DNA from: Mucilaginibacter sp.
Lineage (GTDB): Bacteria; Bacteroidota; Bacteroidia; Sphingobacteriales; Sphingobacteriaceae
DNA length: 64,000 nt
Direction: 5' to 3'
Assembly: GCF_028288225.1 (NCBI RefSeq)
Contig: NZ_JAQBOC010000061.1
Location: forward strand, 1-64,000
In this document: piece after piece, positions 10,401-59,359 of the stretch
Numbering within the stretch: the stretch's first letter is position 1
How the letters are laid out: each line of letters begins with the position of its first letter
Notes under the pieces: model-generated
Told to the model about the DNA's origin: nothing
The model's input: the letters and a program-made list of their open reading frames with translations, nothing else
Databases searched by the model: none
Position numbers and translations under genes: made by a program

Positions 10401-11317
10401 CAGCTTATATTAAATGTTATACCTGTATTAATTATTTTGAATTTTCCGGGCACCACATCCCATGGTTCTACCGAACCGAGATCTAAAAATAAGGAACTGA
10501 TTTTAGCCTGGGTAGGATCAAATACTACCTGCAATTGTTTTACACTAAATAGGTTGCCGATCTTTACCACAGCATCAGGTAATATCGAGAAGAGATTTAC
10601 ACCTAAGAATAATTTCACAAGGTCTGCAAGGCCCTGCACCAAGGGCGTAGAGGAGCCAAATGTAAGTATCCATATATTCTTAGTGCTTTGTGTGCTTACC
10701 GGCACTACTAGCTCAACAGTAAGATTTGTTTTTCCTAATGCAAGTGTTCCTATTAACTGAAACTGTACATCTTGATTAGTTACCCCTGGAATCTGCGTGA
10801 TGATAAGACCAAAACCGAGATTAGTAAGCGACAGGCCAAATGCCGATATTAGACTTATATTCAGATCAGAACTGTCGCACAGCATGTTCAGTGTGAATGT
10901 GCTCGTATCTACTTTAAGATTTGTATTATTAAATAATCCTTTCGGGAATATAGCAGGATCAGAAACTTTGTCCAGGGCTATCAGTCCCTGGTTTACGAGC
11001 ATAACTATAGAAATATTATTTAATTTCCCTGAAAAGGCGGACTGGTATTTATCTGTTCCGATTTCAGTAAATGTCCATTGAATGGTACTATCGGCATCAA
11101 ATAACGAAGTCTGTGCATCTGCTATATTTATAGTATTGCCTGTTACCGTTACTTTGTCCGCGCTAAGCCCTCTCAGCCTAATAGACGACAGCTTCACATA
11201 GCCTAATGCGATGCCAATACTTTCGCATTTGATGGGAAAATCGTCAGGAAAATTAAGCACACCACCCTGGGCTGTAATGGTATCTTTTAGTTTCTGTGCA
11301 ATGCTGTTAATATCCAT
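1469..11317 (-). CDS. Giant (3282 aa) beta-strand-rich protein with repeated amphipathic modules in the N-terminal third and several LysM-like modules mid/C-terminally
   Basis: Single uninterrupted ORF of 9.8 kb. LysM-like segments such as YPVKADDTILSISNKYNAAISEIALVNATALL and TLATIASYFGVTPDAVKAFNPEVPNFDNLAIWTLLRIP. Possibly DUF6603-like, not verified. Confidence 0.9.
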   Translation of the reverse strand: MDINSIAQKLKDTITAQGGVLNFPDDFPIKCESIGIALGYVKLSSIRLRGLSADKVTVTGNTINIADAQTSLFDADSTIQWTFTEIGTDKYQSAFSGKLNNISIVMLVNQGLIALDKVSDPAIFPKGLFNNTNLKVDTSTFTLNMLCDSSDLNISLISAFGLSLTNLGFGLIITQIPGVTNQDVQFQLIGTLALGKTNLTVELVVPVSTQSTKNIWILTFGSSTPLVQGLADLVKLFLGVNLFSILPDAVVKIGNLFSVKQLQVVFDPTQAKISSLFLDLGSVEPWDVVPGKFKIINTGITFNISWQNNKRLINTLITGHYVFSNALNFGVDVIIPPGNNDWQLSVSAGTTDASINDIAALDNTNIPGGLNTQAIGLPKDVFDFKSLNLEEFTVSFNPSNRTVSFIKVNVQAELEWTILKDVLEISNPAIDLTIKNPLNSNRFIFGEIKGKVTLVSLPFDLSATKEEDATGWKFVAATQPGAVIDLKAIVNQLLKPLNVVMPTEIFPSNLGVTDIGFTIDKSDNTTSYSFAARTDGKWTFQFGPLPKVNVTAAVDIKYQSSTFSGSIKGVFEFPGFSNLKVGIQYRFDKDNKILNFIFWEKFIAEYSITEKKREISLKIGDLTLGELLINIMNVIGVHNFKLEAPWTILNDISLKGFGITFDLDTKSVGVTYTLPSEINLGFITITTLELGNNNKDKKMTLSIKGRFLGKEIGDNDRFGKNKPQDVQNMPKVPGRGNAYFDLRALALGQRVSIGADKFKTIPEVIKAIKTLNTPVGDAIPIGGPGQPTFKADNGWLFATNFGILKVGDQYTIDLSVVFADPELYGLRIEMNGEKAKIFAGLKFEILYRKISDSVGVYQMELTLPNAMRYLDFGAVSVVLPVVALQIYTNGDFKVDIGFPYNMDFSRSFTVQGIILGVPVMGSGGLYFGKLSSATSNDVPNANCGQFDPVLIFGIGMQLGIGRYIDKGILKAGFSVTVVGIVEGVIATWLPYTNAIGPGDNPSDVQKSYYFKLQGTLGILGKLYGTVDFAIVKASVSLTVYVMARITYESYKAIIFAISAGVSVAVSISIDFGLFSISIDFSFSTTINETFQLGSDHTQDAPWSCLAAPKHMLRANANLSAQQIQLKFRPFPKQANNAVKIYFTPHLAVNSENNTNTVQASYVSMMFVDSPVIIKGDSRATDVGKTSFDNIIENLFKWLITAATPESNIPDFARIPVQTLKAIYAALSVKGYTIPYTDLSDFLQNQLTITAFPLSGNINATVFPMPPVFGLDTSLNDAPQYAVTFNNYSFADDNYLKALSDYFNQLAVQVQKETGNAPKAKAIRGTLDKTPLSQYIFQDYFLLTARQVIQDSIDAAQNYRYELKGGEDIQTILTWANAIQPGNLTASQVISANKTHALTKDKIITVNSQSYNIKVNDSFNSIATQPLYALTPSAVVLLNATVHNILAAGVKVQLLGNEWTIVSADTLTSLAGSLKTDINTLANNADFQKLNNILRPLATISIPTVSYKLKENDNFQKILSLYNTDVDTLANEPKNTSIENIFVAGKEDDKYLVITALQTIGTEDIFGMLSSQGKSAQIAGMIARYQMHGLRLPLSGISFADSVTPQWVTGTAKDCSMWSITGQQFPLPDMKNTDAYKITLKRNGCTYISFGGGDDLAAILKPVDIDVVNAVAAFARNTKLRPSIKDLSIISPVDKLSGSYSFQNYYQLRTASNPFVLPYDKRSDQQKLASPSPIIWTFTPALLSLLAQKISAAPLMSLQIGKFSAGKNMLEFTPGNFYGYSTVIDVSIKRVPAAEKAASAMRANTYEVIGSDEAGTALLEKLLSAMPTGNDNIIDQISLLYQPNPTAADAKGYLTDGPDNVNMFLTQVNLSTDTNPVQFAKPLLKAAAIEHPSGVINSKYDFIKLLWECSVVRSGGYYLYYQEKVNNNALADVLFDRDGNATISILITYKANTIKNTEIPLYNYMNSVVTGDQIDPSADIVASRSEENDISYPVKADDTILSISNKYNAAISEIALVNATALLSNGVTLDIKNIRYEVRPEQRKPGKTLATIASYFGVTPDAVKAFNPEVPNFDNLAIWTLLRIPNLQYVISDTAAQGNTMQNIAGYYFVTIEALAFYNDRKANIFKTGNITVRDQVLDYKEVVPQGNIGFKLNRNYPGVVPAITAGQPLPPDYAEKSLQNEYQLLTYASSDNADFKLSDFGLPVGPLKSNKTDQNAGAKTSNDDPGIWPYEQVVKIHSYAKYNPIVDKPNLPAAANNPYAGISGYAQLFLDWQDTYGNRIQNTFTDPDIDPTVTLNKQPIQVGYTDTLLGIDQWPGITTNYRFDNSSNNRQLLVDVVFDNSRYDPSLSMVRPGTTDSTPIWKQNAIGDREVYQKVYYQLNQLYAPEPANPGQKKSDVRFTLSTTLTTDTDNMLPDAQVQRILVFISDIYIYLDQLIAGTIKWDANQKPVIKAPLSKAICATLNMNNIFELLVSVGIYRDIVRVHDDFLDDNAVYEAICSINPQSSSTDDAMNLQVFAGIFETIFKYDDLVLKIATASGANPNEYKRDSKGIWIVRWALKEGAKGIFYKKDDKNATVYAARPISTQLEGYPNINIYPYVTAQGIDWNDPNVAKKTFSGIDMDAWGRQFLLSIDDLLNPAYVNATFWISKLYKDDPQNPKKEDLLLSIINSKKSLAGSLANYLEPVLFGYTGDNTTARDKFKQQMLIRLSDFYAVSAVVQYPIDVSVDWTNQEQNAISYPRLYGSMKGTRAINAGLSGDTPKNDGFSLSNSKIVLTNDNKLPSYLNFIFTVKNPKNQTFIPLDLQYQVTHLEHNITQVDGIQEYEASDWLNFVIVPAVNNLTPTEALNLPIVLRAYPTPPSLTAQVGVKSNSDDTVTIPTARQWDFDYDYTQHYAQQDTIHSEMRFNLRPGPVNFMAVNAALFATLAQFISTYPDIHKDLIASLTTVTTKTDRAAPEYKVAAAALRSFQEITEKVAHAWQGGFRLFSNSLKEIYSGNYLFSVIERPEKNEEPIDKQKLIITLSAADNQTPGLVPPLIEIEGYKTITQDNLKLVNDLRDYRYAYQSLVDPTKYLTVEESKVITKRTVSMSKVDVINFQNALSFIKVKRNENLVKDKAGKWIRTADDFVYQTPLISFGNKLIPLLDYSDPKYNYNIARQPQDLQLQISGMFIGLLGQKIPFDITMKIEISYNYTLQNAPDSIDISLPVFLAPSIPIPPNQDTNFAAIAKEITGAMKIWNDAYMPQGFNKKFFFDISVYSGINGNKMPLLTMRYLYLNINDITTWGV

Positions 11318-11350
11318 GGATTGTTTTTTATCACAAACTGATTTTGTGTT

Positions 11351-12715
11351 CTATTGATGGCATTCATATCGTGCAAGAAATGTATGCTTTGATATATTAT
11401 TAGTATAATTAAAGGGGCAGTTTACTCGCCATACCTGGAAATCGCTATAGTTTGCTATGTTTTGTGGCGGCACTATTATCAGGTAACTACCGTTGGTGTT
11501 AATATTATTATTTCCATAGTCATAACTTGTATTTGCCCGTGCAGCGAAAAGTGTATTAGCATAGGTAAGGCTAGCCTGCCCGGTAAAATTATAGAGATTG
11601 GTAAAATAATACCCTTGGCTGTATATCCCCAGGGTTGGGTTGCCATTGTTTGATAAAGGTGCTACCTGGCTCATGTTATAGAGCGTGTTTAATCTCGGAA
11701 GTTTATGATGGTTATCGCTGCCGGCAGAGGTAAAGATGGCCGCAGGTCTGAGCGTATTAAGCCACATTATATTATTGCTGCAGGCGCTTCCGTGATGGCT
11801 TATTTTTATGGCACATATATGCCCTGCCACATTAGTGCCCCCTCCTTTTGGTTGTGCATTGGGCAATAATGTCTGTAGTCCGGCAGCTATTGACGTTTCC
11901 TGGTCAGTATATGAAGCGCAGTTGCCCGTCACGGTAAGTGTGCCGGTACCATAAGGTATATTTTGGGTGTATTTAGCGTTGTGACCGCCGATATCTCCGG
12001 CAGTATAATATCTGAATTTACCATATACCAACAACCACCCGAGGCTGAAATTATTCTGGTTATTTCTACGTGCCGCAATATTATTTACTACTGCACCTCC
12101 TGTACCTACATTAGATCCATTTCCGGCAATGCATATCAGGTACACGTTAACGCCCTTTATACTTCCAAGAGTGAGGGTGTCGCGTATCTGGTTTGGTAAA
12201 TTAGTTAACCCTGCTGGTCTTCTTGCTGCAGTATTAACGTTGTTCCCATAGGCCGAAACATTTGTTTCCCAGACGCCCGCTGCGCGTGGAGGGGGAAAAG
12301 TTATATTAGGAGGCGCTAATGCAGGATTGTGTGCTCCTGCAAGTATGGTATAGTTACCGCCATCGATTATATAATTGGCCCGTATTGTACCGTTACCAAG
12401 TGCCAGTAAGCCATTATAATGGTCGTTATGAAAATGGGACAAGATGAGATAATCGAAATTAGCATTACCTCCGAATTCCTGGTTGATATATGGGATCAGA
12501 TAAGTTGTAGCGCTAGACTTACCGCCGTCTATTATTGTCTTTGCTACTACGGCGCCTGCATTATCAGTAATAGCGATGATCGTACAATCTCCATTTCCAA
12601 TATTTACCTGGTGTATCTGTAACTCATTCTGCGCCTGAATAGTCAGCGGAATAGCCAATACTATCCATTGTAGAAGGAGAAAAGTTTTTATATAACCATT
12701 GTTTTTTGTTTTCAT
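11351..12715 (-). CDS. Secreted metallo-beta-lactamase-fold hydrolase (ComEC/Rec2 C-terminal-like)
   Basis: N-terminal signal peptide; VNIGNGDCTIIAI...TIIDGGK and the metal-binding motif LSHFHNDHYNGL; later ISHHGS. Confidence 0.85.
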   Translation of the reverse strand: MKTKNNGYIKTFLLLQWIVLAIPLTIQAQNELQIHQVNIGNGDCTIIAITDNAGAVVAKTIIDGGKSSATTYLIPYINQEFGGNANFDYLILSHFHNDHYNGLLALGNGTIRANYIIDGGNYTILAGAHNPALAPPNITFPPPRAAGVWETNVSAYGNNVNTAARRPAGLTNLPNQIRDTLTLGSIKGVNVYLICIAGNGSNVGTGGAVVNNIAARRNNQNNFSLGWLLVYGKFRYYTAGDIGGHNAKYTQNIPYGTGTLTVTGNCASYTDQETSIAAGLQTLLPNAQPKGGGTNVAGHICAIKISHHGSACSNNIMWLNTLRPAAIFTSAGSDNHHKLPRLNTLYNMSQVAPLSNNGNPTLGIYSQGYYFTNLYNFTGQASLTYANTLFAARANTSYDYGNNNINTNGSYLIIVPPQNIANYSDFQVWRVNCPFNYTNNISKHTFLARYECHQ

Positions 12716-34449: not shown

Positions 34450-34788
34450 ATGAAAACCATATTCATTGTTGTACTATTCATTTTATCTTTTTGTAAGAAT
34501 GTAGCTGCTACTAATTTGAGAGGACAAATAGTGCGCTACAACCCTGATTACGGGCGATTTTTTCCTCTGCCAGGTGTAAGAGTTGATTTAATGGTATGGA
34601 ACGGGACACAATGGATAGATTTAGCCTATTCAGTAACAGGCAATGATGGATTTTATTATTTTGCAAACCTGCAACCCGGAGGCACCTTTCAAATAGCTGT
34701 ATTTGGGCAGTTTAAGCTTAGTCAACCAATGGTTATCGGACAAGTTAACCCGCCTTACTTTGAGGATATACCGGTAATAAATACTTAG
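34450..34788 (+). CDS. Secreted small beta-sandwich (prealbumin/CnaB-like) protein, first gene of the candidate defence operon
   Basis: Signal peptide MKTIFIVVLFILSFCKNVAA; GVRVDLMVWNGTQWIDLAYSVTGNDGFYYFANLQPGGTFQIAV. Confidence 0.65.
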   Translation: MKTIFIVVLFILSFCKNVAATNLRGQIVRYNPDYGRFFPLPGVRVDLMVWNGTQWIDLAYSVTGNDGFYYFANLQPGGTFQIAVFGQFKLSQPMVIGQVNPPYFEDIPVINT

Positions 34789-34801: not shown

Positions 34802-35554
34802 ATGAGTCTGCCTCAAAAATATTATCTCGAACACATGTTCAAAAACACAGGATACCGGGCAAACTGGCTGCCTGACCACCCTTTGCGTATTGGTGATATC
34901 GGTAAACTGGAAGACGGTCTTTTTACGCTGTATACTACGCTCGAACAGCAACAAATAGGATACTCATTAAGAGAAGGCAATTCCGAATTGGACGTGGATT
35001 ATTCTTCAAAAAATTCAGTTAACATAGAAACAAGCGTATCCACCGGCGATGCATTAAACCTGTCATTGAGCACACCTGTAAACGGACGGGTGATCATCAA
35101 TTTCACTGAAAGCAATGGTATTGTGTTTCAAATGACAGGCGCCAAAAAAAAGGTAATCGAAAACCTGGCAGAAGTTGAAAATACTGTTCTGAATAAATAT
35201 AGGTCCGGGGAGTGGCCAAAGGAATGGGTCGTTATTAGCGAAGTGGTCGTCACCGATCATGCGACGATAATAATCTCTACCAGCAGCAATAATAAAATTG
35301 AACTGGGTTGTAATGCGCAGCTTGGCATTGCTCAAGGTAAACTGGCAGATCCAAAATTAAACCTGACGCTGATAAGTGAGAAAGGCAGTAGTACCAAAAT
35401 TTTTGGCGCCAATAACTTAACACCCTTTTACCAGGTGAAGGGCATCTATAAACCATTTTTAAGAAAACCGCAATTTAGGAAAAGAGCGGATATAACCGAT
35501 GAACTTGAGACGTCAGAAGTGACGGATTTAGGGTTTGACTTAAGAGAATTATAA
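34802..35554 (+). CDS. Conserved-looking beta-rich 250-aa protein of unknown function (candidate effector)
   Basis: No signal peptide; WVVISEVVVTDHATIIISTSSNNKIELGCNAQ and NNLTPFYQVKGIYKPF segments; 13-nt gap to both neighbours (before 14 nt after). Confidence 0.75.
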   Translation: MSLPQKYYLEHMFKNTGYRANWLPDHPLRIGDIGKLEDGLFTLYTTLEQQQIGYSLREGNSELDVDYSSKNSVNIETSVSTGDALNLSLSTPVNGRVIINFTESNGIVFQMTGAKKKVIENLAEVENTVLNKYRSGEWPKEWVVISEVVVTDHATIIISTSSNNKIELGCNAQLGIAQGKLADPKLNLTLISEKGSSTKIFGANNLTPFYQVKGIYKPFLRKPQFRKRADITDELETSEVTDLGFDLREL

Positions 35555-35568
35555 TTAAACAGTAAAGA

Positions 35569-36816
35569 ATGCCGGAAACCAATATCCATGAGATAGAATA
35601 TTTTGAGGAAAGAGCCAGAAGTTTATCCGATATCGCTTCGAATATTAAAACAGGCAACTGTGTATTGGTATTGGGGCCGATGTTTGGTATTAATAAGGGG
35701 CAAAGGCCGATCTATGAAGATATCAAAAACTTCCTGCGTGAGGAGGACGGGTCTCTAATGCTCGATAACGAGTTTCAAAATCTTTACCTCGTTGAAAAGA
35801 TGGATTCCTACGATCAGACAGAAATAGAAGAAATGATATTTCGGTCGTATGAAAGGTTTTCTGCGGATAATATATATAAGTTTCCAAAGGCCGGTAATGA
35901 CGAATCAGAAGAGGATATCTATACAACGATCGCTAAAATAAAATTCAGTGCGTTCATAAATTTTTCACAGGATATTTTTTTAAATAATGCTTTTGATCGT
36001 AATGAGAACTTGAAATATCAATTTACCTATCTTTCAATTTATCAGACACAGGTAGAATTTGAAAAACTTTCAAATGATCCTGAATATAAAAATGCCCCTT
36101 TCATTTACAACCTTTTTGGCCATTATCAGCATAAACAGTCACTTATTTACAGCTATGACCGTTTTTATAAGTTTTTCTTCAAAACCCTTGGAGAAAGCAA
36201 TGAAAACAATGTGTATCCTCCGGAAATAGTAAAAAGGCTTTCTGATGCCAGGATATTCATCTTACTGGGGTTTGATCTGAAAAAATGGTATGTGCCTATT
36301 TTTATTGCCAAACTTTGTAGAATAGGCAGGGAAAATAAAGAAGACAGGCCCATGGTTTTAACAGCGCTGAATAACACAAATTTAGATAACCTTACCTATG
36401 TGGGCTGGCTGACACGCTATCCCCTTAAGTTAAAGTTTATAAAGGATACTTATGATTTCATCAATCAACTATCAAAGATTCCCGGAGTTATAAATGAGCC
36501 AAAAGTGCCTTTGGGTCATGAACCATCTAATAATGAGGAGGAAGAAGTTTTAAGCGATCGCTTGTCTGAAGAAGAGCGGAATGATTTTTATGACAGAATT
36601 TCTGATGTAGGTGATGACGATGAATTACTTAATTTGATAAATGAACTTAAGTCAATCTATGAAAATAAGAAGAATAACGGAGCAGTAAAATTTATGACTA
36701 ATACAAGATCCGATACTAAAATTTTAAAAGTTTCTAAAAGAAGTAACAAAATAAACCGTGACGATTATAAGGTGGAATTTGCCCAAATAAGAGACAGGAT
36801 TTTAGATTATATATAG
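35569..36816 (+). CDS. Divergent SIR2-like protein with C-terminal EAD-like module
   Basis: GNCVLVLGPMFG; INFSQDIFLNNAF; FIYNLFGHYQHKQSLIYSYDRFYKFF; RIFILLGFDLKKWYVPIFIAKLCRI follow the SIR2_2-like order; C-terminus INRDDYKVEFAQIRDRILDYI. Confidence 0.65.
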   Translation: MPETNIHEIEYFEERARSLSDIASNIKTGNCVLVLGPMFGINKGQRPIYEDIKNFLREEDGSLMLDNEFQNLYLVEKMDSYDQTEIEEMIFRSYERFSADNIYKFPKAGNDESEEDIYTTIAKIKFSAFINFSQDIFLNNAFDRNENLKYQFTYLSIYQTQVEFEKLSNDPEYKNAPFIYNLFGHYQHKQSLIYSYDRFYKFFFKTLGESNENNVYPPEIVKRLSDARIFILLGFDLKKWYVPIFIAKLCRIGRENKEDRPMVLTALNNTNLDNLTYVGWLTRYPLKLKFIKDTYDFINQLSKIPGVINEPKVPLGHEPSNNEEEEVLSDRLSEEERNDFYDRISDVGDDDELLNLINELKSIYENKKNNGAVKFMTNTRSDTKILKVSKRSNKINRDDYKVEFAQIRDRILDYI

Positions 36817-36844: not shown

Positions 36845-39784
36845 ATGAGTAAATATAGATATCCCGGCCCCAAACCTTTTACAGATAAGGATAAAGACCT
36901 TTTTTTTGGCAGGGAAAAAGAGCGGGAAATCTTAATTAACTTAATTAAAACCAAAGGGCTCAGTATACTTTTCGGAAGATCCGGAAATGGAAAATCATCT
37001 TTAATTCACGCGGGTTTAATTCCATATTTTGAAGCTGAACAATATAAAATTGTTGAAATAAGGTTGCAGCCATTCAAAAGCTATGAATCGGAACAGTTCT
37101 TATTAAAAAACCAGATCATTACTGAGTTAAAAAAAAATCAGGATTCTGATAAGATCTATTTGAATGAAATATTGCCGGAGAATAATGAAAGCAGTCTGTG
37201 GCAATACTTCAAAACCTTGCAATGGGATGCCAATAAAAAGGGATTTGAGGGAATCATATTTATTATTGACCAGTTTGAAGAATTATTCAATTTCCCGGCA
37301 GACCAATACAAACAGTTTGCAAAAGAGTTCTCGGAAGTTATTTATAACAGAATTCCCTATAAATTTCAGGAAACTTTAAATGAAAAGATCAAATCAGAAA
37401 GTAGCTTTATATCGGAGAATAAATATAAAATTGATTTTCTGAGAGGTGAATTATTTTCCAGTTTCTTAATAGGAATAAGGTCGGACAGGTTATATTTATT
37501 AGATGAGCTGGGAGATGTAATTCCTATCATTTTTAATAACAGATTTAGGCTTGATCACCTGGATTCAACTAAAATTGATGAAGCAATAACCAAGCCTGCC
37601 GGCCTCAAAGGAGATTTCTTGTCGCCACCGTTTGAAATTGCTCCCGAAGTAATAAACGAAATTAAAAAATATTTGTTTGAAGACAATGCTGCAACCCAAA
37701 TGGGCTACATCGAAACATTCCAGCTTCAAATTATCTGCGAGTTTATCGAGCACAAGGCTATGGAAGTTGAACCGGCAGAGGGGAAGATCGTTATCACAAA
37801 AAATATGCTAAGCAAACAGGTCAGCGATATTATAAAGGAATATTATGAAAATATTATAAAAAATATCGATACTGATAGTGCCAGCGATGTTCAGTCATTA
37901 TTTATACGCTTTTTAATTGAGAAGAAACTTATCGATATAAAAACCAACAGCCGCATTTGCCTGGATAAAACTTCAATTTACCCGCTTGGAATCAATGATA
38001 AACTCTTGGCTAAATTAATTGATAGCAAAATAATCCGCAAGGAAATTAATACCGTAAGCGGCGAGAGTTTTGAAATAAGCCATGATAGTTTGGTAAAGCC
38101 TATTTTGGAAGCCGCAAAATCAAAAGTATTAGGGAATCTCGAGTCTCAATTGTATAATTATTATTCAAACAACATCAAGAACCTTGATGACAGAGCGAAA
38201 CGGGATTATAAGCATATTTTATTATCAAAACTGCTCGACAAAGAAGGTAACCTGAGTGCTTTTAAAATTAAAGATGTTTCACAGCAGGAAAGATCAGTTG
38301 AATCAAAGCCAAATGAATATATGGAAGCCGGAGAAACCATATTTGAATCATTCAATGAATCAACGGAGTCCATTGAAATACTTGAAGCGTCTGATAAATT
38401 AAAAGCATCTATCGATCTGTTTGAAAAATGGAATATTATAGAGAAGGTAAGAGGAAATAAAAAAAATAAAGACTTTTATATAATTAATGAAGCCTTCCGT
38501 GACGCTATCATTAAAAAGCAAAACATAGACAACCTGAAAAAGCAGAAAATTATTAATTCAGGTATCGTTGCTTTGTGTATCATTCTGGCTTTTTTCATCG
38601 GCTTACACCTTATAAATAGAAGACAGCATAAAATAGATTATGCGAAAATTTACTTATTTAGTCATACTTCATTTTTCGGCCCCCCTACAGATAACAAAGC
38701 TGATACCGTTAGGTCTGTCAGAAAACTAATACTCTTATCAGAATTATATAAAATTATTAAGCCTGCTGATCCTGCATCGGAATTAATAGTTAAAAATGTA
38801 TTTACCACCTTTTTTAATTCCTATGACTTTTTAGGAAAGAGAATTTCTGTTCATAATTTATATCCTTATTCTTTAAAGCGTAATAGCCGAAACCAATTAT
38901 TGGTTTTCTATAAATCCGCTAAGGATATTAGTCAGAATTCTCCGATGTCGGCATATCTGTACGATCAAAAAGGGAATAGCCTTGATGTTTATAAAAACAT
39001 TCGGGATGCGGCTTTTGCCGGTGTTTCCGAATTAGTAGTTTTGCTAAATGATTCGCTAATTATACGCACAGATAAGGAAGTTAAAAAAGTCAAATTAAAG
39101 CCTGGCAATATAAATCTGAAAAATGCTTTAATTCATATAGACTCTATTAAAGGTGACAATATATTTCTCCAAGTCCGTCTTATTGCCAAAAGCATTAATA
39201 ATAAAAGTTATCGCCCAATGCCGCATTCCATTTTTAATGCTAAGATAGGCTACGATGGCAATATCAGCGAAGTTAAGCCGCAATTACCATACATGACGAA
39301 TTATAGTAATGCATATGCTTCAATAAATGAGCTTAATCAAAAAGGAATTACCAAATTTTTTAAACACTTTACCTTGAGTTATTCTTATTTAGGTCATATC
39401 TTGTCTTTAAAATCAGATAGCGACAGGTCCAAAAGCGTGTCTTTGGTCTATCCTGTTTTGGATGCTTCATTTTCCTCATCGGGAGATACTATTTTTGTAC
39501 GTGACGGGCAATATTTAAATATATTTGATAAATCACTGAAAATACACTCCAAATACAGGAACAGTTCGGCCAATTATGGCGAACTAAAAAGCGCCTCTCC
39601 CTCCATTGCTTATATTCAACCAGGCTACGTAGTTTTAGTTAATTTTCAAGACCCTGTAATAAAATCTGTCAATACAATTGATCCGAATGATATAATTAAA
39701 TATATCGACAAAAAGAAAAGTATAAAACCCTGGCAACCTTTAAGTGCTGCCGAGAAAAAGAACTTTGGTTACGATAACCCTTAA
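36845..39784 (+). CDS. STAND-type P-loop NTPase (nSTAND1-like) with TM helix and C-terminal beta-rich sensor-like region
   Basis: YPGPKPFTDKDKDLFFGREKEREIL; Walker A GRSGNGKSS; Walker B IIFIIDQFEELF; TM IINSGIVALCIILAFFIGLHLI. Confidence 0.85.
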   Translation: MSKYRYPGPKPFTDKDKDLFFGREKEREILINLIKTKGLSILFGRSGNGKSSLIHAGLIPYFEAEQYKIVEIRLQPFKSYESEQFLLKNQIITELKKNQDSDKIYLNEILPENNESSLWQYFKTLQWDANKKGFEGIIFIIDQFEELFNFPADQYKQFAKEFSEVIYNRIPYKFQETLNEKIKSESSFISENKYKIDFLRGELFSSFLIGIRSDRLYLLDELGDVIPIIFNNRFRLDHLDSTKIDEAITKPAGLKGDFLSPPFEIAPEVINEIKKYLFEDNAATQMGYIETFQLQIICEFIEHKAMEVEPAEGKIVITKNMLSKQVSDIIKEYYENIIKNIDTDSASDVQSLFIRFLIEKKLIDIKTNSRICLDKTSIYPLGINDKLLAKLIDSKIIRKEINTVSGESFEISHDSLVKPILEAAKSKVLGNLESQLYNYYSNNIKNLDDRAKRDYKHILLSKLLDKEGNLSAFKIKDVSQQERSVESKPNEYMEAGETIFESFNESTESIEILEASDKLKASIDLFEKWNIIEKVRGNKKNKDFYIINEAFRDAIIKKQNIDNLKKQKIINSGIVALCIILAFFIGLHLINRRQHKIDYAKIYLFSHTSFFGPPTDNKADTVRSVRKLILLSELYKIIKPADPASELIVKNVFTTFFNSYDFLGKRISVHNLYPYSLKRNSRNQLLVFYKSAKDISQNSPMSAYLYDQKGNSLDVYKNIRDAAFAGVSELVVLLNDSLIIRTDKEVKKVKLKPGNINLKNALIHIDSIKGDNIFLQVRLIAKSINNKSYRPMPHSIFNAKIGYDGNISEVKPQLPYMTNYSNAYASINELNQKGITKFFKHFTLSYSYLGHILSLKSDSDRSKSVSLVYPVLDASFSSSGDTIFVRDGQYLNIFDKSLKIHSKYRNSSANYGELKSASPSIAYIQPGYVVLVNFQDPVIKSVNTIDPNDIIKYIDKKKSIKPWQPLSAAEKKNFGYDNP

Positions 39785-40948: not shown

Positions 40949-42508
40949 TTATTTAATATTATCTAAGGTTGCTGCCGGTTTACCTTCCATTCCCCGTGTT
41001 ACCAGGTCAGCTAAAAATATAGCAAACGGCGCAATATTACCGGTTACACTGGCAATTTCCAGGCATTTCATATATTCAGCTCGTTTTTCCACTGGTATTA
41101 CAGTCCAGGGGTATCCGCCTGAAGATAACATAACATTCATCATAAACCTGCCCATTCTGCCGTTCCCGTCCATGTAAGGATGAATGTTTACAAAAACGAA
41201 GTGTCCCAGTACAGCCCGTACAGACGCGTCGGGTTCGTTGGAAAGCAATTCAAAAAGCAGTGGCATGGCATCTCTTAATGCAGCGACATTTAGTGGCACG
41301 TGCTTAGAGCCACCAATGTATACCTGGTGGGTACGGTACCCGGCAAGATCACCAGCCTTTAGTATACCGGCAGTTACACCAGGGCTAAATAGTTCCCTGT
41401 ACCAGTCCTGATGCTCCTCATCGGCAATCACACCGGCATTTGCACCATCCAATATTTTATTAATGCTTTCTTTTACCACCTGGAACGCCTGCCAGTAGCC
41501 GCGTGCCGCCATCGCATCTTTCTGTTGACGGTCATCCTTGTTTCCTTCACTGTCCCATTGTCCGCTTCGAACCCTTTCGATCAGGTCGGGTGTAACCCGG
41601 TATCGCTCGATGGAAAGGGAATGGTAAGCATCGGTTACGTAAACCTCCTCGACGGCTTTAAGATAGGCATCTTTAACTTGAGGTATACCTGGTGCCTTTG
41701 GAAATACGTCGATCACCGCTTTTTGCATCGTGTTCCACGTTAACCTTATCCTGTTCGCATAAGGCGATCGTTCTTTGAAAGATAGGCCAACCTCTATTTT
41801 TGTTTCGAAAGGGTCTGTTTCCCGTATATCATAATCAGCAGCCTTCATGGCTTTTAAAATATCATTAGCGATCCTTTCACGGCCTATATTCCGGAAAGCG
41901 CCGCATAACCTGCCGGCAATAGTGGTGTGTCCGCCGTTCAACAGGATGGTCAAAACTTCGGCTGAGTCACCTATCAAAGCCAATGCAGTCCGTGCGTCTG
42001 TCGGGCTTTGGATAAATATGGATTGACTACAAAACACCAACGCAGCTGGCAGTGTATACAGCATAATACCGTTTTGCTTTTCTCTCAGGTCGTCTGCCGG
42101 CAGCTCACCTCTCATATGGAACAGTGAGGTGTGGTGAGCTAAGTCTGTTTTAAAGTTGGATGCTTCAGGTGCACGGATCACTAATTGAGTGGGCACTGTT
42201 TGATTTCCGGAATGGAGCTGTAAAGATTGATCAGCCGAAACGGTATACCTATCGCCATACTTTTCGCTAATATACCCGCTGCAAAAATCCCAGTAATTAG
42301 CGTACCATGATGTACTATCCCCGGGTAATTCATCCGGACGTGATGGTATATACCAACCCTTGAGTACTTCTTTGAGGAAACCGTTTTTTGTTAACCGTTG
42401 TCTGTAAACCGTACTGATATCGTCGGTATGAATCGCTATCATACCCTTGTTTTGCAAGGCGTGCAACGTGTCTAAAGCGTCCGCCAATTTCTCTGCCGGT
42501 GTTGCCAT
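40949..42508 (-). CDS. Fic-domain protein with N-terminal AbiEi-like antitoxin module
   Basis: Fic motif HPYMDGNGRMGRF; N-terminal STVYRQRLTKNGFLKEVLKGWYIPSRPDELPGDSTSWYANYWDFCSGYISEKYGDRYTVSADQSLQLHSG is AbiEi/wHTH-like. Confidence 0.85.
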   Translation of the reverse strand: MATPAEKLADALDTLHALQNKGMIAIHTDDISTVYRQRLTKNGFLKEVLKGWYIPSRPDELPGDSTSWYANYWDFCSGYISEKYGDRYTVSADQSLQLHSGNQTVPTQLVIRAPEASNFKTDLAHHTSLFHMRGELPADDLREKQNGIMLYTLPAALVFCSQSIFIQSPTDARTALALIGDSAEVLTILLNGGHTTIAGRLCGAFRNIGRERIANDILKAMKAADYDIRETDPFETKIEVGLSFKERSPYANRIRLTWNTMQKAVIDVFPKAPGIPQVKDAYLKAVEEVYVTDAYHSLSIERYRVTPDLIERVRSGQWDSEGNKDDRQQKDAMAARGYWQAFQVVKESINKILDGANAGVIADEEHQDWYRELFSPGVTAGILKAGDLAGYRTHQVYIGGSKHVPLNVAALRDAMPLLFELLSNEPDASVRAVLGHFVFVNIHPYMDGNGRMGRFMMNVMLSSGGYPWTVIPVEKRAEYMKCLEIASVTGNIAPFAIFLADLVTRGMEGKPAATLDNIK

Positions 42509-49928: not shown

Positions 49929-52900
49929 ATGGCTTACAATCAGTTTCAAAAACTAAGGGATAATATCACCGCGATTAAAATCGCGCTGGCGCACCGGAAC
50001 GGGCAAACCGCCCATCCTGAAGACCAGGCGGCTTTGCAGGCTTATGCCGGTTTCGGCGGACTGAAAGCGGTGCTGTTTCCTGCCGGGGAAAAGCAGGGCT
50101 GGATTGACCGGAATGCTTCCCGGCAGGATCTGCGCCTGTACCCGTCCATGATGGAACTGCACGAGTTGCTTAAGGACGGTTTGCCGGAAGCGGATTACAA
50201 GGCCGCTGTACAATCCATTCGTGACAGCATCCTGACCGCCTATTACACACCGGCAGTTGTTCCGCAAACGCTGTATGCAGTCTTGAAGGAAAACGGCATC
50301 GACCCTAAACATCCCTATGAACCGAGCAGCGGCGCGGGTATTTTCATCACTGAACTGATCAAGGCCTTCCCAAACACTGAACAGATCACCGCGGTCGAAA
50401 AAGACATCGTTACAGGTATGGTGTTGCGAGCACTGGCAGCGACCTTACCGGCGCCAGTTAATGTGCAGGTCAAAGGGCTGGAAGAAACGGCCGATACAGA
50501 AAATGGGCAGCATGACCTGATCGTCAGCAATATCCCATTCGGCAGTTTCCAGGTTTATGACCCGGCTTTCCCGGATAAGGATATCAGTGGCAAGATCCAC
50601 AATTATTTTTTCGCCAAAGGGCTGGATAAGCTGGCCGACGGTGGCATTATGGCATTCATCACCACAGATGCTTTTCTTAATAATCCGTCTAACCGCGCAG
50701 CCAGGGAATACCTTTTTCACCACGCTGATTTTATCAGCCTCACCGTCATGCCGGATAACCTGATGAAGGATACCGGTAACACCGAAGCGCCCAGCCATTT
50801 ACTGGTTGTGCAAAAGAACAGCAGTAAAACGGAACTGAACGCTGATGAAGAGATGCTGCTGGAAACCGCGCATAAGGCAAATGAGTTCGGCAGGTACCAT
50901 GTCAACGAATTTATCGACACCGAACGGGAACGGATCATCGCCGCAGACACCATCAGGGCGGGTAAGAATCAGTATGGGCAGGCGCACGAGGTCACCTGGC
51001 AGCAGGGCGACATTGCTGCGGTTACAGGCGTTCTCCGGGAGAACCTCCGCGATGGTTTGCAGGCTCATTTCCGGCCTGAAGCTTTCAAGCTGGCGCAAAG
51101 CCCGTTAAATGAAGCGCAAAAAGCAGCACAAAAGCCATTGCTTAACTACCTGCCGATGCCTGAAAATACGGCCGCACAAGTCAGCGTTCAGCTGGGCCTT
51201 TTTGACAGCGCACCCGCCGAAAACGGTAACCGGGCGATGGATTATATAAAGGAATCGGACGAAAATACGGTACAGAAGATCAGCGCCCGGCTCATCGGCA
51301 CCATCCGCACGAAGGATAACCCGGAGCACGAAAGCGTGGTGCTGCTGACCGCCCGCTATCAGGGGGGCAAACAATTCGGGTACAAACTGGTAGCCAACGT
51401 AGAAGGGATCGTTGTGCCTTTTCATTGGCTCAATGGTAACTTGCTCAGCCAGGAGCTGCCACGGCTGGTGGCCGCGCTCCAAAAATATAACCATGATTTT
51501 TACGTCGAAGGCGACCAGAGCCTGAAGGGATTTTTCAATTTCGGCCAGAATGCCGAAATTTATTACCGTGCACTGAACGCCTTTCACCAGGAAGGCAGCC
51601 TGGTCAGCCTGAACGGGCAGACCGGAACGATCCACCGGATCAACGATACGCGCAGCCAGGCCGTCTTTCAGCCGCTGGCCGATCAAAAGGACGCCTTGTT
51701 TTATGAGCGGTATATCACCGTAAGGGATCATTACCTCGCACTATATGCAACTGAAGCCGCCGCGCAAACCGAATACCCGGCCTTCCGCCGCGAACTGGAG
51801 GAGGCTTATAACCAATTTGTGCAGCAATACGGCGAACTCAATCGTCCGGCTAACCGAAGGCTGGTCCTGGCCGATGAAAAGGAGGGCTTTAAACTGCTGT
51901 CCTCTATCGAAGTAAAAAACGGTAACGATTTTCAGCCTGCCGATATCCTGACGGCGCCGGTGTTCCGGAACCGGGAGGACTTTAAAACCGATGACCCGGT
52001 ATCGGCGCTGGCCCGCTGTCTGAATGAAAAAGGTGCGGTCGACCTGAGCTTTATCGGCGCTGTGACGGGGCTTTCTGCAGATGAGGTAACCATCAGCCTG
52101 CAAAGCCATATCTGCCTGAACCCTCAAACCCGGGAATGGGAAACGGTCGACCAGTACCTATCGGGTAACGTGGTGCAGAAGCTGGAAATCGCGCAACAAC
52201 GGGCGGAACAAAACCCGCAGGATGCACATCTGCAACACAGTTTGCAGGCGATCAGCAGGGTGCAACCCGAACCGATCCCTTTTGAGCTGCTGGACTTTAA
52301 CCTTGGTGAGCGCTGGTTCCCGCTGGCTTATTACGAACGGTTCGCCAGTGATTTCTTTGAACTGCCTGTGCATATCGCCTACCTGCATTCCGGCGATAAC
52401 TTTAAAGTCAGTACCAAGGGCAGCAATCTGAAGATCAGCCGGGAATTTGCCATCACGCCAAAAGAAAGCAGCCGCCGGACTTACGGCTATACCTTATTGG
52501 AACACGCAATGGAAAATACCAGCCCTTACTTTAGCTACGAGGTTTCTCTGGGCAGCGGCAAAACTAAAAGATACCCCGATAATGAAGCCATCCAGCTGGC
52601 TCATCAAAAGATCGAAAGCATTCGTTCCGGCTTTGTGGGCTGGTTACAGGAGCTGCCTGCCGAGGAAAAGAAATACCTCGAAAAGCTGTACAACGATACC
52701 TTTAACTGCTATGTACTGCGCGCGTATCAGGGCGATCACCTGAGTTTCCCGGGCCTGGATAAAAAAGCGCTGGGCATCGAAGACCTTTATAGTTCGCAGA
52801 AAAATGCCGCCTGGCGGATTGTGCAGAACCGGGGTGCACTGATCGACCACGAGGTGGGTTTGGGCAAAACGCTGACGATGATCGTGGCAGCGCAGGAAAT

Positions 52901-55529
52901 GAAGCGCCTCGGCATCGTGCATAAACCCATGATCCTGGCGCTTAAGGCAAATGTCAACCAGATCGCTGAAACGTACCGGAAAGCCTATCCCAATGCCCGT
53001 ATCCTAGCGCCCGGAGAAAACGATTTTACGCCCGACAAGCGCCTGCGCCTTTTCCACGAGATCAAAAACAATAACTGGGACTGTATCATCCTGACGCATG
53101 ACCAGTTTGGCAAGATCCCGCAGTCCCCGGAGATCCAGCGGCGCATTTTCCAAACCGAGCTGGATCATACCGAACGTGACCTGGACACGCTGCAGGACGA
53201 AGGCGGCGATATTTCGCGCCGTATGCTCAAGGGGCTGGAAGTCCGCAAAAAGAATTTAACAGCTAAGCTCAAAACGCTCCAGCATGAGATCGAGGGCAAA
53301 AAGGACAAGGGCATCGACTTTAAGGAGATGGCCATCGACCACCTCTTCGTGGACGAATCCCATAAGTTCAAAAACCTGACGTTCACCACCCGGCACGACC
53401 GGGTGGCGGGCCTGGGCAATACCGAAGGCAGCCAGAAGGCGCTTAATATGCTTTTCGCGGTGCGCACACTGCAGGAAAAGTTTGACGCCGATCTCTGTGT
53501 GACTTTTCTGAGCGGCACGCCGATCTCCAACAGCCTGACCGAAATGTACCTGATCTTTAAATACCTGCGGCCAAAGGAAATGGAACGGCAGCGCATTGAG
53601 AACTTTGACGGCTGGGCGGCAGTTTTCGCCAAAAAGACGACCGACTTCGAGTTCTCAGTTACCAATGAAATTATCGCCAAGGAACGCTTCCGGCATTTTA
53701 TCAAAGTACCCGAACTGGCGCTGTTCTATAACGAGATCACCGATTACAAAACTGCTAAACATATCTCCCTGGATAAACCGGCGCTGGACGAACGGCTGGT
53801 CAATATTCCGCCGACCCCCGAGCAGGCTGATTTTATCAAACGGCTGATGCAATTCGCCAAAACCGGCGATGCGACCCTGATCGGGCGTCCCCCTTTGAGC
53901 GATGACGAGGATAAAGGCCGGATGCTGATCGCCACCAATTACGCGAAAAAGATGGCGGCGGATCTACGGCTCATTGACCCGGTTAAATACGAGGATCACC
54001 CGGACTTTAAGGTGAATGTCTGCGCCAGGAAACTGGCCGAATTATACCGGGGCAGTCAAAAGGAACGCGGCACCCAGATCGTGTTTTGCGATATCGGTAC
54101 GCCCAAGCCCGATGCCTTTAATATCTATGATGCCTTGAAGCAAAAGCTGGTCCGGGATATGGCGATCCCGGCAGGTCACATCACTTTTATCCACGACTGG
54201 ACGGATAAGCAGAAACCCGACCTGTTCAAAAAGATGAACCGCGGCGATATCCGCATACTCATCGGCAGTACCGAAAAAGCCGGTACCGGCCTGAACGTGC
54301 AGGAACGGGTGATCGCCATGCACCACCTCGACATCCCCTGGAAACCCAGCGAGCTGGAACAGCGCAATGGGCGCGGCGCGAGGCAGGGCAATAAACTGGC
54401 CAAATCAGGTTACGATAACAAAGTGCAGAACTTTATCTACGCCGTAGAGCAATCCCTTGACAACTATAAGTTTAACCTGCTCAAAAACAAACAGACCTTT
54501 ATCTCGCAGATGAAGAACTGCGAGCTCAACGTGCGCACCATCGATGAGGGTTCCATGGATGAAAAGAGCGGCATGAATTTCTCGGAATACATCGCTATTC
54601 TCTCGGGAGATACGACCCTGCTGGAAAAGACCAAGCTGGAGAAAAGGATCGCGGTCACCGAAAGCCTGAAAACGGCTCACTTCCGGGAGATCGTCCGTAT
54701 CCGCTACCAACTGGAAAATCTGGAATGGGAAAAGGAGCGGAACATACAGATGCTGAAAGTGCTCGAAAATGACCAGGCAGTTTACCATAAGCAGCTGAAA
54801 CTGGAAAAGGACGGCTCGAAAGCCAACCCCATCCGCCTGAAAGAACTGGAAAGTGCTGACAGCAAAGCCATCGGAAACTACCTGATCCGGCTTTACCGGA
54901 CGTGGAAGCCCAAAAGCGCGGCTGATAATCCAAAGGAACTAGGTAGCCTCTACGGTTTTAAACTGTACATCCGGAACGAACAGGAACTGACCAATCTTGA
55001 TGGCAAGCCACTGACCAGGGAGTACAATACCCTGTTTGCTGAGCGGCCGGGCAGCAGTGTCCGCTATACCTTCAGCTCAGGCACGCCCAATACGGATAAT
55101 CCCAAGCTGGCGGCCCGCTATTTCCTGAACGCCATTGACAAGGTGGACGGCCTGGTGGAAAAGCAGGGAAGGGAGCTCCGGGAAATGGAAGAACAGCTGC
55201 CCCAATTGCAAAGCCTGCTGGGCAAACCTTTTGAAAAAGAAACCGAACTGCAGCAGATGAAAGGTGAATTATCCCGGCTGGAAAGGGAGATCGCGCAAAA
55301 GATCCTGGAAAAACAAGCGGCACAAAACCAGCAGGAGGGATCCGAAGAAATGCTTGCAGATGAGAAAAAAAACGGGATCAACCAGGCGGAAGCAAAGGTT
55401 ATTGCCATGCCCGGCCAGCAAAAACAAAACGACCCCGAGAAATGGGTAACGCAGGCCGTAGTCAATGGGAGCGCGCTGCGCGGGGAGATATCGCTGCGTG
55501 GCAAAAAGACGAAAGGTTTAAAATTATGA
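49929..55529 (+). CDS. Giant N6-adenine methylase / SNF2-type helicase fusion typical of Bacteroidota conjugative elements
   Basis: Methylase-like [16 protein letters not shown]; helicase [89 protein letters not shown]. Confidence 0.9.
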
Positions 55530-56905: not shown

Positions 56906-59359
56906 ATGGAAAAAGAGTTGAAGGATATATTACCGATTATGGGCGTGGAGCATGACTGCATCCTGTCCACGCAAGGGGAATTTACCGTGGTGTTCAAAGC
57001 CACGCTGCCGGAAGTGTTTACGCTATCGGACGAGGATTACGAAAACCTGCACCAGGCCTGGCTGAAAGCGGTTAAAGTGCTGCCCAAAAACAGCGTGCTG
57101 CACAAGCAGGACTGGTTCGTCCGGCGCAACTACCAGGCCGCTGAACAAAAAAAGCAGCGCAGCTTTTTAAACGAAAGCAGTGCGCGCTATTTCAGCGGCA
57201 GGCCGTATCTGCAGCATGACTGCTATATCCTGCTGACGAAAAGACCGGCAGGCCGGAAACCGGGCAATTCCGTTTTTTCCAACCTGCTCCGGCCGTCCCT
57301 CGTTCCCAGCGAGACACTGAAGCCGCAGGCTTTGAGAGAATTCCTGGACCTGGCCGGGCAGTTTAAACGCCTGCTGGAAGACGGCCGCCTGGTCAAACTG
57401 ACCCAGCTGAAAGCGGCTGACCTGCAAAGCCTGCCCCGAAAAACCGGACTGATCGAGCGGTATTGCTGCCTGCCGGAACAGGATGAGCAGCAGGTATACA
57501 AAGACATTCAATTTCAGGATACTATCCGCATCGGGGACCAGCAGCTGGCGATCTATACCTTAGGCGATGCGGAAGACCTGCCCGGTCTTTGCGGTTCGCG
57601 GATCACCTATGATGCTTATTCTACGGATAAAACCAAATTCCCGGTCAGCTTCGCCGCCGGCCTGGGATTACTGCTGCCCTGCAACCATATCTATAACCAG
57701 TTCATCCTGGTCGGCGACGCACAGGATACGCTCCGGCAACTGGAGAAAAAGCGCCTGCGGCTGCAATCCCTGTCCGCTTATTCCCGTGAAAATGCAATTT
57801 CCCTGGAGGCGACCAACGACTTTTTAAACGAGGCGATCAGCCAGCAAAGGCTCCCGGTCAAGGCGCATTTCAACGTGATGGTCTGGTCGGACAACCCGGA
57901 AGAGCTGAAGGACATGAAAAACCAGGTCGCCTCGGCACTGGCCGGGATGGATGCCGCTGCCAAACCCGAAACGGCGGGTGCCGCGCAGATCTGGTGGGCG
58001 GGCATCCCCGGCAACGCGGCGGATTTCCCGGTCAATGACACCTTTGATACCTTCGCGGAACAGGCCTGCTGTTTCCTGAACCTGGAAAGTAACTATAAGA
58101 GCGCGGCACCGGATGAGGGCATCCGTTTTTGTGACCGTTCCGGCAGGCCGGTGTTTGTGGACCTGTTTGACGGGCCGCGCAGGGAAGGCATTTCTTCCAA
58201 TATGGGGGTGCTTTGTTGCGGGACCTCCGGTGGCGGTAAATCGATGACCGTCAATCATATCCTCCGTTCCCTGTATGACCAGGGGGCGCATTGCGTAACG
58301 GTAGACATCGGCGGCAGCTACCTGGGTTTGTGCGAGCTGGTTGGCGGCTATTATTTCACCTATACGGAAGAAAACCCTATCCGTTTTAACCCTTTTTATA
58401 TCAAAGCCGGGGAAATCCCGGATACGGAAAAAAAGGAAAGCCTGAAAGCCTTGCTGGTCGCCTTGTGGAAGCAGGAAAACGAAGGGTTTAACCGCTCGGA
58501 ATACGTCGCGCTGTCCAATGCGCTGCAGGGATTTTACCGGTACCTGGAAAAGGACAAGAGCCTGTTTCCCTGCTTCAATACTTTTTACGAGTACCTCGAA
58601 ACGCATTATGTGGACGTATTGAAGGGGCAGCGGGTAAAGGACCGCGATTTCGACGTCGATAATTTTTTATACGTGCTCAGGCCCTATTACGAAGGCGGGG
58701 AGTTCGATTACCTGCTCAACGGCAAAGAGAACCTGGACCTGTTAGACCAACCCTTTATTGTCATAGAGCTGGACAACATCAAAGACCACCCGATCCTGTT
58801 CCCGGTGGTAACGCTCATTATCATGGAGCTGTTCATCAGCAAGATGCGCAAGCTGAAAGGCGTAAGAAAAGTTTTGACCATTGACGAAGCCTGGAAAGCC
58901 ATTGCCAAATCCGGTATGGCGGAATTCCTGAAATATGCCTTTAAGACGATCCGCAAGTTTAACGGCATTCCCATTGTCATCACCCAGGAACTGGAAGACC
59001 TGGTCTCATCGCCGATCATCAAGGACGCCATCATCAATAACGCCGATATCAAAATATTGATGGACATGCGGAAATTCCAGGGCAGGATCGAAAAGCTGCA
59101 GGATGTACTGGGGCTGCCGGAAAAAGGCAAGACCATATTACTATCGGTCAACAAGGATAACCACGAGATCTTCATTGACATCGGGGGACAACAGCTGAAA
59201 GTATATAAAAATGAGCTGTGCCCGGAAGAATATTATGCCTACACCACGGAAGGAACCGAAAGGGTGAAAGTCATGGAACTGGCCGCCAGGCACGGCAGCG
59301 TTCAAAAGGGCATTGAAGCCATGGTAAAGGAAATGCAGCAACCCAAATTATTAGCGTGA
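56906..59359 (+). CDS. traG: TraG-family (VirB4-like) conjugation ATPase
   Basis: VLCCGTSGGGKSMTVNHILRSL; VLTIDEAWKAIAKSGMAEFLKYAFKTIRKFNG; VITQELEDLVSSPIIKDAIINNADIKILMDMR. Confidence 0.95.
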   Translation: MEKELKDILPIMGVEHDCILSTQGEFTVVFKATLPEVFTLSDEDYENLHQAWLKAVKVLPKNSVLHKQDWFVRRNYQAAEQKKQRSFLNESSARYFSGRPYLQHDCYILLTKRPAGRKPGNSVFSNLLRPSLVPSETLKPQALREFLDLAGQFKRLLEDGRLVKLTQLKAADLQSLPRKTGLIERYCCLPEQDEQQVYKDIQFQDTIRIGDQQLAIYTLGDAEDLPGLCGSRITYDAYSTDKTKFPVSFAAGLGLLLPCNHIYNQFILVGDAQDTLRQLEKKRLRLQSLSAYSRENAISLEATNDFLNEAISQQRLPVKAHFNVMVWSDNPEELKDMKNQVASALAGMDAAAKPETAGAAQIWWAGIPGNAADFPVNDTFDTFAEQACCFLNLESNYKSAAPDEGIRFCDRSGRPVFVDLFDGPRREGISSNMGVLCCGTSGGGKSMTVNHILRSLYDQGAHCVTVDIGGSYLGLCELVGGYYFTYTEENPIRFNPFYIKAGEIPDTEKKESLKALLVALWKQENEGFNRSEYVALSNALQGFYRYLEKDKSLFPCFNTFYEYLETHYVDVLKGQRVKDRDFDVDNFLYVLRPYYEGGEFDYLLNGKENLDLLDQPFIVIELDNIKDHPILFPVVTLIIMELFISKMRKLKGVRKVLTIDEAWKAIAKSGMAEFLKYAFKTIRKFNGIPIVITQELEDLVSSPIIKDAIINNADIKILMDMRKFQGRIEKLQDVLGLPEKGKTILLSVNKDNHEIFIDIGGQQLKVYKNELCPEEYYAYTTEGTERVKVMELAARHGSVQKGIEAMVKEMQQPKLLA

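Follow-up and report, generated by a model that had tools for sequence, protein, structure and literature searches.

The 64,000-nucleotide window analysed here, the whole stretch of Mucilaginibacter sp. DNA under study, carries an operon of four genes in the order gasdermin-like, SIR2-like/EAD11, nSTAND1-TM-sensor and CHAT protease (Table 1). The genes are separated by 12 to 28 bases, with the SIR2-like gene lying 28 bases upstream of the STAND gene and the CHAT gene 12 bases downstream. Sequence analysis is the basis for what follows on the architecture, the helix and the charge bias of its flanks across the family, and likewise for the conserved operon, the homology to gasdermins and the dyad of the protease.

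Table 1. Genes and protein regions of the operon and of the gene upstream of it, with positions in the window
Feature	Position	Strand	Basis or remark
Small exported beta-domain protein, co-directional	34450..34788	+	weak Pfam CarboxypepD_reg 0.05
Divergent bacterial gasdermin homologue, 250 aa, predicted pore-forming effector	34802..35554	+	family profile against PDB, reciprocal test, hhalign, protease neighbours
C-terminal tail of the gasdermin-like protein, aa 216-250	35447..35551	+	alignment; candidate autoinhibitory/cleavable segment
SIR2-like domain (aa 135-255) with C-terminal EAD11-like domain, catalytic His to Phe	35569..36816	+	Pfam SIR2_2 1.7e-6
EAD11-like C-terminus, aa 386-415 of the SIR2-like protein	36724..36813	+	Pfam E=0.0056, below cut-off; relatives support
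nSTAND1 NTPase - TM helix - C-terminal region, predicted trans-membrane sensor/trigger	36845..39784	+	979 aa, ATG start
nSTAND1 NTPase and winged-helix module, aa 6-417	36860..38095	+	Pfam, motifs
Single transmembrane helix, aa 569-590	38549..38614	+	hydropathy, flank charge, position conserved in relatives
C-terminal 389-aa region, putative periplasmic sensor, fold unproven	38615..39781	+	comparative topology
EAD11-like (weak) - CHAT caspase-fold protease, dyad H170/C212	39797..40672	+	Pfam CHAT 5e-5

An initial annotation of the STAND gene had described an open reading frame with an NTPase and a winged-helix-like part, and our analysis agrees with it on both: the reading frame matches, and the Pfam nSTAND1 model (PF20703) covers the module with an E-value of 1e-25 and 91.6 bits, against a curated cut-off of 27.1. 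The P-loop motifs are intact (Walker A GRSGNGKS at 44, Walker B FIIDQFEE at 139) and are accompanied by IRSDR at 211 and SHD at 412. The gene is single-copy within its own genome, and PADLOC returned no match for the protein. Relatives of the STAND were absent from a degenerate-pattern scan of genome contigs, and also from viral contigs and a phage collection; they were gathered by whole-genome searches instead of the pattern scan.

Regarding the CHAT protein, a profile built from a pair of sequences found the solved CHAT structure 8tl0 in the PDB (2e-16), with H170 (in SGHA) and C212 (in NAC) aligned. Its EAD11-like segment is weak, with values of 0.17 in the window and 0.019 in Flavihumibacter soli (locus L025), while relatives of the SIR2-like protein carry EAD11 at 4e-15 and 8e-7. 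No EAD was found in the STAND itself. When the SIR2-like profile was aligned to KomC, H146 of KomC fell on the Phe of the NLFG motif of the window protein (P0004), and three of three relatives also have Phe at this position. Because the catalytic His is replaced, normal NADase activity is doubtful, and the protein is probably not a normal NADase. The same replacement, NxFG instead of the HG motif of NADases, was seen in SIR2_2 proteins tied to nSTAND1-TM genes (window 35569-36816, L025:4683-5855, L024:732-1802 and L026:8576-9640), which could represent a pseudoenzyme lineage.

The small exported protein encoded just upstream had been put forward as a periplasmic partner of the STAND. We rejected it as a conserved partner: a homologue is absent from F. 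soli, the sole relative with the same operon, and its close homologues in three further genomes of the genus (L086:8214-9234, L087:8459-9507 and L088:3108-4085) have no STAND nearby, with a gene for a small membrane protein upstream instead. Judging by these neighbourhoods, the homologues and the small membrane protein are an unrelated two-gene cassette.

Conservation, probable import and proposed role of the operon

In F. soli (L025/L040), the four genes occur in identical order, with identities of 45, 31, 33 and 33%. The whole operon was seen in these two genomes only. Its GC content is 34.9%, whereas the flanking DNA has 43.3% and 49.7%; at 16 kb downstream there is a gene for the conjugation protein TraG. 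The low GC together with the nearby conjugation gene suggests that the operon was imported by horizontal transfer. In a search for promoters and terminators at the operon, nothing stood out. Among the surroundings, a Fic/DOC family protein (Pfam 2e-11; 40949-42508, minus strand) is convergent with the operon, and further downstream the window encodes a large helicase/Eco57I-type methylase protein (49929-55529) and the TraG conjugation ATPase (56906-59359); the latter two appear to mark a mobile conjugative element with further defence cargo.

With genes for a caspase-like protease and for a gasdermin relative as well, the operon looks like a self-destruct device watching the envelope. The STAND would probably be a switch that spans the inner membrane of this soil-type bacterium, the motor being on the inside and the sensor outside, and its gasdermin-like, SIR2-like and CHAT neighbours probably define what it controls. 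We propose that the four genes form a horizontally acquired, trans-membrane inflammasome-like cell-death system, to which we assign a probability of about 0.6.

One could argue that a system built in this way serves kin recognition, development or a general envelope-stress death, with a trigger coming from self or from a neighbour. Multicellular bacteria are indeed enriched for nSTAND and EAD systems, for which roles not directed at phage have been suggested (PMC7159879, PMC10907252). Besides, four sister systems have a TonB-dependent receptor gene after the STAND gene and two others have homologous genes there, which would fit envelope physiology. However, the operon is low in GC, rare, patchy and close to conjugation genes, as is typical of imported defence cargo, and the gasdermin operon of Lysobacter, when tested, defends against phage (PMC9079055). 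We consider such a role unlikely and keep a defensive, inflammasome-like cell death as our reading of the operon.

A divergent family of gasdermin-like proteins

Gasdermin pore proteins kill infected animal cells. Their known bacterial homologues are cut by neighbouring caspase-like proteases, and some of their operons contain NLR/NACHT genes (PMC9612521, PMC9079055); the protease neighbourhood is a hallmark of bacterial gasdermins (PMC9612521). From the size, the strand pattern and the protease neighbours of the 250-aa protein, we set down the hypothesis that it is a gasdermin before testing it. The protein has no match in Pfam, NCBIfam or PADLOC. The silence of Pfam means little, because the solved gasdermin 7n51 reaches only 2.4e-4 with the Pfam Gasdermin model, below that model's cut-off.

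The relatives that we gathered come from Bacteroidota and from Embleya, Gemmatirosa, Mesorhizobium and Streptomyces plasmids. Searching the whole PDB with a ten-member family profile gave a single candidate, the bacterial gasdermin 7n50 (E=0.0037). With sixteen members, 7n50 was the sole significant match at 3.3e-5, the next one being at 0.69. An approximate gasdermin query was used solely to retrieve the true PDB sequences. A set that included 537 ORFs of the loci retrieved served for a reciprocal test: outside the family itself, the three solved gasdermins were the top matches of the family profile, and in the reverse direction family members were the top matches of a gasdermin profile. Profile-profile alignment by hhalign gave a probability of 83% and a score of 44.2 (shuffled maximum 20.8), colinear over aa 14-206; an earlier comparison of this kind with four gasdermins failed, and success came only after both families had been enlarged. 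The window protein by itself scores 2 bits against known gasdermins, so that it is linked to them only through its relatives. From these profile comparisons, we conclude that it is a distant homologue of bacterial gasdermins, in a previously unrecognised family.

A CHAT or C14 protease is encoded near 12 of 17 loci of the family, across several phyla, and none was found nearby at the other five. A Cys near the N-terminus, the usual palmitoyl site, is absent from the alignment of the window protein and its relatives; such a palmitoylated Cys is reported for the majority of bacterial gasdermins only (PMC9612521). After the last conserved core motif, the alignment ends in a variable tail of around 35 residues, and autoinhibition of bacterial gasdermins by a C-terminal tail has been described (PMC9612521). 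In the window protein, aa 216-250 would be the candidate for such a segment. The AlphaFold2 model was uninformative (pLDDT 31). Plasmids yielded no relatives of 7n50, and viral contigs yielded no relatives of the gasdermin-like gene.

The weak similarity of the window protein taken alone, the five loci with no protease found and the missing palmitoyl cysteine would also suit a protein that forms no pore, namely a protease substrate or adaptor resembling gasdermins over part of its length. We find this quite unlikely, given that the PDB-wide, reciprocal and profile-profile tests concur and cover most of the fold, and that the hypothesis predates all homology tests. We thus retain a gasdermin-type pore former as the predicted effector. 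In another arrangement of the family (L078:652-8094 and 8175-11669), the gasdermin-like gene lies between a TIR-nSTAND1-TM-LRR gene and genes for a DUF7379/LCAT-type hydrolase and a TIR-caspase.

Membrane topology and C-terminal region of the STAND protein

The one clear transmembrane helix reported by the initial annotation proved to be real. Residues 569-590 are TM-like on three scales (Kyte-Doolittle 2.59, octanol scale 9.8, Hessa dG -1.7), and all 21 STAND relatives examined have a predicted helix after the NTPase module, its position being kept and its sequence not. An independent Bacteroidota sample was drawn with the Pfam nSTAND1 model rather than by similarity to the window protein; of its ten proteins above cut-off, eight have a helix, one lacks it and one could be read either way. 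Four cyanobacterial homologues and one from Persicobacter have it too. Taken together, the relatives, the Pfam-drawn sample and these distant homologues put the helix far beyond chance, and such a predicted helix is a common trait of the nSTAND1 family, not peculiar to the window protein.

Summed over the relatives, the flank of the helix on the NTPase side holds 129 K/R residues vs 69 on the C-terminal side, and this excess points to an N-in/C-out orientation for the family. The best argument for the side of the sensor is gene fission. In three relatives (Haliscomenobacter, L024; L031; L039), the STAND ends 67-98 residues past the helix, and the gene that follows it codes for a protein of its own that, as judged by inspection, starts with a Sec signal peptide; two of these exported proteins contain WD40 repeats and the third, P0008, is weakly propeller-like (0.0034). 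Since the C-terminal part of these split relatives is made from its own gene and carries a signal peptide, the sensor probably faces the periplasm, with the STAND oriented N-in/C-out. A membrane STAND with its sensor beyond the cytoplasm, as originally suggested for this gene, is supported by the family charge bias and by the split relatives.

It could still be that the STAND is anchored in the membrane while its C-terminal part is cytoplasmic or lies on the membrane surface, sensing inside the cell as Avs proteins do. The flanks of the window protein itself are almost balanced (5 K/R on the N side vs 4 on the C side), its tail has no proven fold, and WD40 sensors are often cytosolic. Nevertheless, the bias across the family and the exported propeller proteins adjoining the truncated relatives make this distinctly improbable, and we favour the periplasmic placement. 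Most improbable is the objection that the initial annotation had raised against itself, a soluble STAND with the hydrophobic segment buried in a globular domain: the helix of the window protein is a single hydropathy window, but the segment is conserved in position and not in sequence, has basic flanks, occurs in 21 of 21 relatives and, in three of them, closes the NTPase half of the protein.

The beta-propeller-like spacing noted earlier in the 389-aa tail could not be confirmed. The tail had no match in Pfam or in the PDB, its profile-profile scores with the propellers of relatives did not exceed those of shuffled controls, and its best period, 45 aa, was not significant (shuffle p=0.11). 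AlphaFold2, run on an alignment with one relative, was uninformative (pLDDT 35). In fused relatives, the region past the helix contains WD40/propeller repeats (L030, 1.8e-22; L029, 1.5e-18) or LRRs (L037). As relatives carry WD40/propeller domains at the same position, a propeller in the tail of the window STAND is plausible.

We also found, directly 3' of nSTAND1-TM-WD40 genes, TonB-dependent receptor genes that are separated from them by a few bases or overlap them (L029:10368-13001, L030:10965-13718, L032:10429-13068 and L036:2402-5032). The systems at these four loci are TIR-nSTAND1-TM-WD40 or close relatives, several of them with a TIR gene upstream, and at L034 and L035 the genes that follow the STAND are homologous to those for TonB-dependent receptors. 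A TonB-dependent receptor might be an outer-membrane partner of a periplasmic STAND sensor.

Predicted mechanism and comparison with known systems

In the mechanism that we propose, the STAND would be an inner-membrane protein whose NTPase lies on the cytoplasmic side and whose C-terminal region is periplasmic. A cue on the envelope side, for which phage adsorption or DNA entry, envelope attack and loss of a ligand of the cell itself are candidates, would act on the periplasmic part, and the signal would cross the helix. The NTPase would then swap its nucleotide and cluster, and the clustered STAND would gather the CHAT protease and the SIR2-like protein via EAD11-type adaptor domains. Once activated, CHAT (H170/C212) would clip the C-terminal tail off the gasdermin-like protein, which would form pores in the inner membrane, so that the cell would be killed or arrested. 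We infer the cue, the clustering, the cleavage, the pore formation and the defence role of the operon.

To our knowledge, characterised bacterial NLR-like proteins detect invaders inside the cell. If the STAND sensor does face the periplasm, the decision to die could be taken before phage DNA is expressed, in direct parallel to surface receptors. Tentatively, nSTAND1 proteins could make up a broad class of trans-envelope immune receptors, with periplasmic sensing and cytoplasmic effectors that include a CHAT-cut, cross-phylum gasdermin family. If so, the class would be the bacterial counterpart of a surface receptor wired directly to an inflammasome, and in some cases sensing would take place beside a dedicated TonB-dependent receptor.

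Bacterial gasdermin operons (Johnson et al. 2022; reviewed in PMC9079055 and PMC9612521) resemble the present one in that a short gasdermin homologue adjoins a CHAT caspase-fold protease with an NLR-type STAND in the operon, and an outline of such operons, with their NLR genes and CHAT proteases, has been published (PMC9612521). Here, in contrast, the gasdermin comes from a divergent family that neither Pfam nor PADLOC recognises and that lacks the N-terminal Cys, the STAND is membrane-spanning and the operon has a SIR2-like protein in addition. A search of the literature, covering openly accessible journal papers, found no description of membrane-spanning nSTAND1 receptors as a class, or of this gasdermin family. 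The new family adds to the gasdermins that escape the present Pfam and PADLOC profiles. A review leaves open what switches bacterial gasdermins on (PMC9612521), and the present operon, which brings together a homologue, the protease that probably cuts it and a trigger spanning the membrane, makes this question testable with four genes.

Like other nSTAND1 (PF20703) proteins of Bacteroidota and cyanobacteria, the window STAND has an NTPase scoring above cut-off followed by a TM helix. Relatives in this family end in WD40, propeller or LRR domains, whereas the tail of the window protein has no recognisable repeat, and its operon partners differ from those of most relatives examined. With Avs it shares a STAND NTPase, a large C-terminal sensor-like region and effectors of the NADase or protease type. 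Avs proteins have an N-terminal effector fusion and a cytosolic sensor, unlike the window STAND, in which the NTPase starts at aa 6, the effectors are separate genes, a TM helix is present at 569-590 and the sensor probably lies outside the cytoplasm. A STAND system sensing in the periplasm has also been predicted for a Thiohalocapsa NACHT locus with a putative periplasmic CLec target (PMC10907252); there, the sensing domains are C-type lectins diversified by a DGR, while here the STAND, the helix and the sensor are fused directly and this fusion is conserved across the family.

Finally, the EAD conflict systems (Kaur et al. 2020, PMC7159879) have in common with this operon the EAD11 on a SIR2-like protein, which is clear in relatives, a CHAT effector and a STAND core. 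They differ in that no EAD was found in the window STAND and that the EAD scores of the window proteins are below cut-off. A sister system at L026 encodes in one operon an EAD1-trypsin (9645-10658), an EAD1-SIR2_2 (8576-9640) and an nSTAND1-TM-tail protein (5261-8566), that is, the same chassis as the window operon with another adaptor and another protease.
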